Part shown: piece after piece, positions 4,796 to 5,564 of the stretch | Numbering within the stretch: position 1 is the first letter of the stretch | Layout of the letters: the number at the start of each line of letters is the position of its first letter | DNA from: Fibrobacter sp. | Lineage (GTDB): Bacteria; Fibrobacterota; Fibrobacteria; Fibrobacterales; Fibrobacteraceae | Assembly (NCBI GenBank): GCA_017550445.1 | Contig: JAFZOV010000069.1 | Coordinates: forward strand, 1-6,539 | Reading direction: 5' to 3' | DNA length: 6,539 nucleotides | Notes under the pieces: generated by a model | What the model was told of the DNA's origin: nothing | Databases searched by the model: none | The model's input: only the letters and a program-made list of their open reading frames with translations | Translations under genes and position numbers: made by a program

Positions 4796-4829
4796 TGTCA
4801 TTCTGGAGCGCGAAGCGCGATAGAATCCA
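4796..4829. repeat. Half-copy of the TGTCATTCTGGAG palindromic repeat
   Basis: A 34-bp unit starting 6 bp after the hsdR stop. It has the left-arm start TGTCATTCTGGAG and the AGAATCCA end, with no matching right arm. It can fold by itself: ATTCT (4800-4804) pairs with AGAAT (4822-4826), and GCGC (4808-4811) with GCGC (4815-4818) around a GAA loop. The hairpin just after hsdR may protect or end the transcript, but no T-run follows. An identical unit lies at 5365-5398. Confidence 0.8.
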
Positions 4830-4837
4830 CCCTGCTT

Positions 4838-4914
4838 TGTCATTCTGGAGGCCCATCGGCCGATAGAATCCATGGTCCCTATCGGTCATCCTACGGATTC
4901 CCTCCAGGGTGACA
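4838..4914. repeat. Palindromic repeat, gene-less copy B (77 bp)
   Basis: The ends are inverted: TGTCATTCTGGAGG (4838-4851) against CCTCCAGGGTGACA (4901-4914), 12 of 14 positions complementary. Nested inside are CCGATAG (4860-4866) and CTATCGG (4879-4885), which pair around a loop centred on CCATGG, plus the self-complementary ATCGGCCGAT (4855-4864). GAATCC (4866-4871) is also mirrored by GGATTC (4895-4900). It carries no gene. It is one of three short full-length copies here and differs from copy D mainly in the stretch before the right end. Confidence 0.85.
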
Positions 4915-4961
4915 ACTGGAATGTCATTCTGGAGCGGAACGCAGTGTAGCGATAGAATCCA

Positions 4962-4990
4962 TTGTTTTTCCAGAATAGATTTTGTATTTT
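4962..4990 (+). promoter_or_regulatory. Candidate promoter for the GIY-YIG gene
   Basis: TTGTTT (4962-4967) and TATTTT (4985-4990) are separated by 17 bp. Transcription would start at about 4997, the first base of the chosen ATG, so the message could be leaderless. No Shine-Dalgarno sequence is visible. The candidate begins at the point where the palindrome's left arm ends, so the gene may carry its own promoter. Confidence 0.3.
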
Positions 4991-4996
4991 ACACTC

Positions 4997-5284
4997 ATGC
5001 AAAAGAGGGGATACACTTATATCTTGTTCAACAAGAAGAACGGCACATTGTATGTCGGCGTTACGAGTAATTTAAAAGAACGTATTGCTCAACACAAGCA
5101 AAAAATCTTTGAGGGCTTTACCCAAAAGTACGGCATAGACAAGTTAGGGTACTTTGAAGAGCATACGGATATGCGTCACGCCATAGAACGTGAAAAGTCC
5201 ATGAAGAACTTGTTAAGAGCCAAAAAGATTGAATTGATTCAATCAATGAATCCCGAATGGGAAGATTTGTTCTTTAAACTGTAG
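4997..5284 (+). CDS. Small single-domain GIY-YIG nuclease family protein (COG2827/YhbQ-like)
   Basis: A complete 95-residue protein, the normal size for single-domain COG2827 members. The GIY-YIG pattern is clear: YTYI (residues 6-9), LYVG (18-21), then NLKERIAQH with the expected arginine R29 and H33. The helix AIEREKSMK (62-70) holds the likely metal-binding glutamate E66. The family ending NPEWEDL (85-91) is intact. All expected catalytic positions are filled, so it is probably an active DNA nuclease or nickase, although the biological role of this family is poorly known. No other domain, signal or membrane segment is present. The ATG at 4997 is chosen because the family start (a few residues before Y[TV]YIL) fits it. 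A TTG at 4982 would add five residues. The gene sits between the two arms of a palindromic repeat, which suggests a link between the protein and the repeats. Confidence 0.85.
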   Translation: MQKRGYTYILFNKKNGTLYVGVTSNLKERIAQHKQKIFEGFTQKYGIDKLGYFEEHTDMRHAIEREKSMKNLLRAKKIELIQSMNPEWEDLFFKL

Positions 5285-5339
5285 AGGACTGGACCCTATC
5301 GCATCGGCCAGCGGCCTCGCTCCAGGGTGACAACTGGAA

Positions 5340-5364: not shown

Positions 5365-5398
5365 TGTCATTCTGGAGCGCGAAGCGCGATAGAATCCA
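5365..5398. repeat. Half-copy of the palindromic repeat (identical to 4796-4829)
   Basis: It is identical, base for base, to the 34-bp half-unit just after hsdR, including the GCGC-GAA-GCGC hairpin and the eight-base CCCTGCTT linker that follows it. It opens the second long direct repeat. Confidence 0.85.
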
Positions 5399-5406
5399 CC
5401 CTGCTT

Positions 5407-5479
5407 TGTCATTCTGGAGGCCCATCGGCCGATAGAATCTATGGTCCCTATCGGTCGTTACACTCCCTCCAGGGTGACA
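5407..5479. repeat. Palindromic repeat, gene-less copy D (73 bp)
   Basis: It has the same inverted ends as copy B (TGTCATTCTGGAGG and CCTCCAGGGTGACA) and the same inner stem CCGATAG/CTATCGG. The right arm contains GTTACACTC where copy B has a 13-bp stretch, and the centre reads AATCTATGG instead of AATCCATGG. No coding potential. Confidence 0.85.
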
Positions 5480-5486
5480 ACTGGAA

Positions 5487-5564
5487 TGTCATTCTGGAGC
5501 GGAACGCAGTGTAGCGATAGAATCTATGGACCCTATCGGTCGTTGCACTCCCTCCAGGGTGACA
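5487..5564. repeat. Palindromic repeat, gene-less copy E (78 bp), 'empty' counterpart of the GIY-YIG element
   Basis: The left arm (5487-5527) matches the left arm of the gene-bearing element with a single base change. At the centre it passes directly from AATCTAT to GGACCCTATCG, the sequence that begins the right arm of the gene-bearing element at 5290. The remaining right arm (GTTGCACTC then CCTCCAGGGTGACA) resembles that of copy D rather than that of the gene-bearing element. Confidence 0.85.

Follow-up and report, generated by a model that had tools for sequence, protein, structure and literature searches.

A small GIY-YIG nuclease gene enclosed by CGTC-type REPs in Fibrobacter: a candidate autonomous repeat element with relatives in at least six phyla

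Sequence comparison tied a family of GIY-YIG nuclease genes specifically and strongly to CGTC-type REPs. The association extends over at least six phyla: Fibrobacterota, Bacteroidota, Pseudomonadota, Cyanobacteriota (with Gastranaerophilales), Elusimicrobiota, and Campylobacterota, with a single record for each of the last two. The member analyzed in most detail lies in a stretch of 6,539 nucleotides from Fibrobacter sp. (contig JAFZOV010000069.1; referred to as the window) and is enclosed by two inverted REPs (Table 1). We consider it probable that this REP-gene-REP unit is an autonomous REP element, whose spread would be driven by the nuclease. The best reading of the family as a whole is that the GIY-YIG enzyme may be the dedicated nuclease of the CGTC-like REP superfamily, a putative counterpart of RAYT with an unrelated fold; such an enzyme could supply the partner that a widespread class of bacterial repeats has seemed to lack. 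Cleavage of the REP by the nuclease and mobilization of the unit are both putative.

Table 1. Positions of the gene-bearing unit and of neighboring REPs in the window
Feature	Position	Strand	Description
Single REP	4796..4829	+	
Gene-less REP dimer	4838..4914		Axis CCATGG
Whole REP-gene-REP unit	4922..5332	+	411 bp; like boundaries in some dispersed copies elsewhere
Left REP of gene-bearing unit	4922..4961	+	TGTC head, stem ATTCT/AGAAT, CCA tail facing gene
GIY-YIG nuclease gene	4997..5284	+	95 amino acids; ATG at 4997, stop at 5284
Right REP of gene-bearing unit	5290..5332	-	TGTC head outward, stem ACCCT/AGGGT, tail facing gene
Single REP	5365..5398	+	Opens second, gene-less array
Gene-less REP dimer	5407..5479		Axis CTATGG
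Gene-less REP dimer	5487..5564		Axis CTATGG; left arm as in gene-bearing unit except one base

The arrangement proposed in the preliminary description, a gene lying between two matched inverted arms with gene-less forms of the repeat adjoining it, was confirmed. The outer arms, TGTCATTCTGGAGCG (4922) and CGCTCCAGGGTGACA (5318), were complementary with two mismatches in 15, and the inner GCGATAG (4949) and CTATCGC (5296) were exact complements; an equally good 15-mer appeared in 0/200 mononucleotide shuffles of the flanks. Each arm also formed a hairpin of its own (ATTCT/AGAAT on the left and ACCCT/AGGGT on the right, read from the head inwards), and the right REP, inverted relative to the left, ended with GACA at 5332. 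The two sides had further been said to carry variants that differ from neighboring copies in step. Both arms of the gene-bearing copy did match each other, but the left variant (GGAGCG/GCGATAG) was not special, being common to four of the six plus-strand copies in the window (4796, 4922, 5365, and 5487), and the right variant was unique within the window only: an identical right arm occurred in a gene-less dimer of a relative (L001). The gene has an alternative start (TTG at 4982) and is neighbored by a type I restriction HsdR-like gene on one side and the end of guaA on the other; the identical 95-residue protein (100%) was encoded in two Fibrobacter genome records. An Rfam search of the region gave a single sub-threshold miRNA match, which was judged to be due to chance.

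Gene-less dimers of the same REPs were present next to the gene as well as away from it. Where the unit bears the gene, the latter interrupts the axis of the dimer (CCA, gene, TGG), and this axis was CCATGG or CTATGG, with a constant gap, in 6/6 distinct short dimers, namely those listed by the strict scan in the window and in three related loci (L001, L002, and L058). Two dimers in another locus (L060) differed in their axes, their gaps being 26 and 29 nt. The left REP recurred with one base changed at 5487. The array at 4796-4961 was repeated at 5365-5525, in blocks 99% and 98% identical, and the third unit of the array contained the gene in the first copy and lacked it in the second. A separate feature of the window, at 393-492, is a set of three 34-bp direct repeats (similarity to the first 76-79%) with TTTGGAAAA, which precedes a DUF4143 ATPase gene.

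The gene product matched Pfam PF01541 (E 4.9e-17) and, besides this, only PF10544; the intron-endonuclease model of NCBIfam, TIGR01453, matched below its cut-off. Tyr8, Tyr19, Gly21, His33, Glu66, and Asn85 were invariant in both alignments, and Arg29 was invariant in one alignment and almost so in the second. Such positions are those expected of a catalytic GIY-YIG enzyme. The superfamily domain and the conserved residues were intact in the protein of the window. The AlphaFold2 model (pLDDT 94) was closest to two solved structures of UPF0213 proteins, 1zg2 (the best match) and 1ywl, followed by a weak fold match to Slx1, a branched-DNA nuclease (E 0.017 and up). Small GIY-YIG proteins of the UPF0213 type, which we take to be YhbQ-like, resemble the enzyme in structure and, as described below, differ from it in genomic context.

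Relatives were gathered by protein similarity alone. A profile built from 22 diverse rows found 225 distinct full-length genes in the loci examined, and their scores were split by a gap: 206 genes scored high (above 95 bits) and 19 low. The latter consisted of 13 YhbQ-like or other divergent genes from Fibrobacterales, one from Bacteroidota, and five degenerate genes from the Gastranaerophilales class. The strict definition of a REP required GTCA, five perfect outer pairs, and T followed by C; it was applied to flanks of 300 bp, for which eight short-flank genes were excluded (206 to 198). An outward-facing REP, with the GTC head directed away from the gene, was present on at least one side of 166 of the 198 genes and on both sides of 93, many of the 198 being related, so that these counts are not independent events; the expectation that related genes are usually bounded by inverted arms was borne out. 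By taxon group, as named from the record titles, the values for at least one side and for both sides were 94/101 and 48/101 in Fibrobacterales, 27/31 and 17/31 in the Gastranaerophilales class, 25/35 and 18/35 in Bacteroidota, and 18/29 and 8/29 in Alphaproteobacteria; the single records of Elusimicrobia and Campylobacteraceae both had outward REPs on both sides (2/2).

By the same strict test within 300 bp, outward REPs flanked 0/19 of the low-scoring GIY-YIG relatives, including 0/13 of those in Fibrobacterales, most of which are of the UPF0213/YhbQ-like type. Reversed flanks never had REPs on both sides. Inward-facing heads also occurred, mostly in Bacteroidota (any side, 25/35), as expected wherever repeats are clustered. 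Among other ORFs in long loci, an outward REP was found on any side of 32/270 and on both sides of 4/270, and REPs numbered 6.2 per kb in the 300 bp nearest the gene versus 0.18 per kb beyond 2 kb. No REP was recognized by the strict test at 32 of the 198 genes, including 11/29 in Alphaproteobacteria. A second set, drawn from multi-copy genomes and sharing some of its 69 genes with the first, gave 45/69 (at least one side) and 31/69 (both); here, one genome of Alphaproteobacteria had no REP at 6 of its 10 copies. A relaxed detector found matches at 4/19 of the control genes (both sides at one), 45/270 of the other ORFs, and 7% of shuffled flanks, and because of this background the counts above use the strict detector.

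Among 11 loci examined from 33 matching named records, eight had the gene beside such repeats. In Azospirillum lipoferum 4B, the gene and two REP dimers lay between sufB and sufC; CGTC/TGTC repeats flanked the gene in Sinorhizobium meliloti, Rhizobium CIAT894, Shinella, Sphingobium, Aeromonas caviae, and Planktothrix, the right arm being decayed in S. meliloti and Shinella; and in Neisseria gonorrhoeae, dRS3-type repeats in either orientation surrounded the gene. No REP was found within 300 bp by the strict test in a Photobacterium or in two Rhizobium plasmid records of one lineage. This plasmid lineage (L258 and L259) keeps the gene at one site without a recognizable REP. On the Planktothrix plasmid (L257), the gene stood in a defence neighborhood, between an MmeI-type restriction enzyme and DISARM drmA, which resembles the context of the HsdR-like gene in the window.

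Different clades of the nuclease lay between different repeats in Fibrobacterales: GTCATTCTGGAG, GTCATTGCGAG, GTCATCCTGAG, GTCATCCTCCG, GTCATGCCGGAC, and others. The matching of clades as such covers Fibrobacterales. The following comparisons, of left with right arms and of proteins with repeats, use the relaxed detector. Over the nine bases after GTC, the left and right REPs of one gene agreed at 7.19 positions versus 5.07 when the right repeats were dealt randomly, the highest of 10,000 permutations being 5.93 (n = 54, from 103 genes with both repeats by that detector); the values for 28 non-redundant genes were 7.18 and 5.08. The two arms of a gene were thus more alike to each other than to those of other genes. 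Among paralogs of the same genome, the gene's own right REP was the better match in 27/34 cases, equal in four, and worse in three. Protein identity correlated with the similarity of the left repeats (Mantel r 0.32, permutation maximum 0.156, n = 48). Around one gene (L005), both heads were GTCTTTC rather than GTCATT, alike on the two sides, and an additional inverted repeat of about 20 bp lay further inside.

The same relationship was found between genomes. In 113 Fibrobacterales genomes, the presence of the gene went with the number of repeats (odds ratio 13.9), and in 198 Bacteroidota genomes, it went with five or more GTCATTGCGAG heads (odds ratio 14.6, P 1e-11), P values here and below treating the genomes as independent although they are related; because of this, clade-wise tests were added. 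Motifs and identity of the proteins served to delimit the clades, at a stage when the flanks were already known: set A comprised eight genomes encoding a protein at least 72% identical to that of the window (one with a broken gene), and set B, the GCGAG clade, comprised 20 genomes, 19 of them within the pool of 83 REP-rich Fibrobacterales genomes. In this pool, the window's clade (eight genomes) was enriched in its own repeat class (median 68 versus 16, P 7e-4) and not in that of the GCGAG clade (19 versus 30); conversely, the GCGAG clade (19 genomes) was enriched in its own class (51 versus 24, P 2e-5) and not in that of the window's clade (16 versus 21). The gene was absent, as counted, from 22 of the 83 genomes, four genomes with only low-scoring or fragment matches being scored as lacking it, and six Bacteroidota genomes with five or more REP heads had no match. 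REP-rich genomes of this kind may reflect incompleteness, loss, or REPs spreading without the enzyme. One of the six Bacteroidota genomes (G124) had 602 GTCATTGCGAG heads and no GIY-YIG match at E 1e-10.

The stems of the repeats were compared by picking copies by their inner motifs only, with the two outer bases left free. These bases were complementary in 72/73 copies of the CTGGAG class, where three pair types occurred (27 on average and at most 39 in shuffles), in 158/164 of the GCGAR class (143 and 150), and in 69/88 of the CTGAG class (33 and 45). Judged from these repeats, the pairing of the REP hairpin is maintained through compensating change.

Signs of movement were sought among ten non-tandem pairs of genes at least 80% identical within the same genome. 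In one genome (G574), two genes 99.3% identical lay on different contigs, and their homology ended at TGTC and GAC(A/T), one copy carrying an extra repeat inserted inside. In four further pairs (G404, G196, G004, and one pair of G309), one flank broke within 3 nt of the head. A break within 3 nt of a REP head was therefore found in 5/10 pairs, at both flanks in only one of them, and the shared block ended elsewhere in the remaining five (three of them in G038). Breaks at a REP head being limited to half of the dispersed pairs, our confidence in the explanation as an autonomous element was slightly lowered. Tandem genes with repeats between them were present in three genomes (three genes in G188; also G077 and G214), another (G175) had three copies within 7 kb, and up to 11 matches per genome were found, some copies carrying stops. 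In four loci (L369, L367, L368, and L385), two or three GIY-YIG genes were arranged in tandem or a short distance apart, separated by REPs, with a period of about 420 bp in L369. No target-site duplication was recognized by eye in the four loci inspected (L370, L371, L087, and L088). The last two had been taken as transposed copies, and this was rejected: the loci are orthologous, and the breaks in homology are repeat indels beside REPs. At the corresponding site of a third locus (L303), about 490 bp encoded an acetyltransferase-like ORF; because this ORF stands there, L303 is not a clean empty site. The ORF follows a small upstream ORF, and the approximately 490 bp are missing in L087 and L088, which carry the REP-gene-REP unit at this site; the arrangement is reminiscent of a toxin-antitoxin type pair disrupted where the element stands.

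Orthologous sites without the gene were also compared. Between sufB and sufC, five other Azospirillum records had neither a GIY-YIG match nor a strict REP, and the same applied to two Shinella records at the Shinella site; the gene and the strict REPs were thus jointly absent in 7/7 records (the relaxed detector gives chance matches in four of these). A comparison of this kind had been proposed in the preliminary description. Downstream of guaA, 30 relatives had no GIY-YIG match, and 26 of them had no strict repeat within 900 bp, two of the 26 having flanks of only 120 and 385 bp. The other four comprised two with one strict repeat each (L282 and L300), one with several (L287), and one with a single chance-like match (L292). 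The boundaries of these sites are blurred by divergence, so that exact junctions and duplications are not fixed there. The four copies of the gene downstream of guaA (in the window, L001, L002, and L058) represent one orthologous site and, because of this, say nothing on movement. The REP-gene-REP unit is likely to be mobile now or to have been so formerly.

CGTC REPs have been described in five phyla, in species including S. meliloti, A. lipoferum, and the Neisseriae, and as dRS3 in Neisseria and RPE-4/RPE-6 in Rickettsia (Di Nocera and colleagues, PMC3733652). The accessible text of that study, from 2013, gives them a stem of 8-9 bp and a loop of 4-5 nt, states that they "apparently lack a dedicated transposase" (transposase genes were examined), and leaves their mode of spreading open. 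The REPs of the window share with them the unpaired start (TGTC here, TGTC or CGTC in our other classes), the stem mostly from AT, the CCA-type tail, and the inverted dimers. The left arm of the unit conforms to this with its AT-initial stem and CCA, whereas the right arm differs at the second base of the stem. The CTGGAG repeats of the window are also longer (33-42 nt), with an outer stem of 5 bp and a longer inner part, whereas other classes flanking relatives of the gene do fit the 8-9 bp stem and 4-5 nt loop. The gene was found beside such repeats in species named in the same text, which reports no associated transposase gene, whereas a GIY-YIG gene is associated here.

RAYTs, or TnpA-REP, are HUH/Y1 tyrosine transposases (Transposase_17 in PMC2817692). 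According to the same paper, they lie between two GTAG REPs of opposite orientation, and the trees are congruent. On sequence grounds, the unit in the window is REPtron-like in layout and is not a RAYT. The analogy with RAYTs, already drawn from the window, holds for this layout: the gene lies between two inverted REPs, solo REPs and gene-less dimers are dispersed, and enzyme and REP co-vary. It differs in the enzyme, GIY-YIG instead of HUH tyrosine transposase, in the head, CGTC/TGTC instead of GTAG, and in activity, which is reported for TnpA-REP, a cutter of single-stranded REP (PMC8266576), and putative for the GIY-YIG enzyme. A survey of Caulobacter mentions three COG2827 genes of unknown role (PMC1839093), and PMC9465073 lists a RAYT and a GIY-YIG gene, which its accessible part does not link. 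No paper linking GIY-YIG genes to REPs was among the matches listed, most subscription journals and all preprints lying outside the coverage.

GIY-YIG enzymes include intron homing endonucleases of the I-TevI type, and a homing-type gene would provide another explanation of the unit: the enzyme would cut the CCATGG axis of the gene-less dimer, and repair with the gene-bearing copy as template would write the gene in, so that it would spread through dimers already present, the REPs spreading otherwise. The gene splits exactly the axis seen in the six short dimers, the window holds two copies of one REP array with and without the gene, and TIGR01453 matched, albeit below its cut-off. On the other hand, the two dimers of L060 have other axes and gaps, the two empty sites retain no dimer without the gene, REPs and gene being jointly absent there, and most gene-less relatives at the guaA site lack strict REPs. 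We regard this explanation as unlikely. In comparison with I-TevI-type endonucleases, the unit shares the catalytic domain and a gene that splits a repeated site; it has no intron, and 95 residues leave little room for an extra DNA-binding domain.

The enzyme could instead be a domesticated host nuclease trimming REP hairpins or cruciforms in replication or repair, with the REPs as substrate and not as vehicle. The fold match to Slx1, the synteny of some copies across several Fibrobacterales genomes, as expected of a kept host gene, and an SOS box at one of the three C. crescentus COG2827 genes (in the available text of PMC1839093) are consistent with this role, which we nevertheless consider improbable in view of the patchy distribution, the high copy number in some genomes, the clustered and dispersed copies including those with stops, and the sufB-sufC position being occupied in one of six Azospirillum records compared. 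Least probable, and already disfavored, is that REPs gather around many short dispensable genes, with this one a passenger having no functional tie to them. REPs do cluster in intergenic DNA and adjoin some unrelated ORFs, including 9/29 of the ORFs neighboring a GIY-YIG gene, but flanking on both sides was far more frequent for the nuclease gene than for other ORFs (93/198 versus 4/270), and the nuclease clade matches the REP class, also inside single genomes, with co-occurrence class by class.

For the autonomous element that we favor, the nuclease would recognize its cognate REP as a hairpin, cruciform, or inverted dimer and nick or break the DNA at or near the GTC heads, and host repair or replication would then copy the unit. 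The dimers that lack the gene would derive from the unit and depend on it for movement in trans, as has been proposed for REPINs and RAYTs. GIY-YIG enzymes are nucleases that act by hydrolysis, which is why homing-like break and repair appears likelier than the action of a strand-joining transposase. A broader proposal, to which we give slightly less than an even chance, is that hydrolytic GIY-YIG nucleases of about 95 residues are dedicated to mobilizing all of the CGTC REP superfamily, across six phyla or more, as a second, independent kind of REPtron with gene-less dimers as its non-autonomous progeny. If so, autonomous units of about 400 bp would be among the smallest self-coding mobile DNAs, and partnerships between REPs and enzymes would have arisen at least twice, with unrelated catalytic folds. 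A clade-matched nuclease makes the question of how CGTC REPs spread directly testable with one 95-residue protein and one oligonucleotide.

These results also suggest a likely biology for a common group of genes, whose records (those examined, including 120 of 621 homologs listed) bear the names 'GIY-YIG nuclease family protein', 'putative endonuclease', 'hypothetical protein', and 'excinuclease ABC subunit C'. A relative carried by genomes of the Gastranaerophilales class (L248-L252) has an altered tyrosine of the YIG motif and changes at other conserved positions (LIIGVTSN.LMHMHEIKN), and is perhaps catalytically dead and domesticated.
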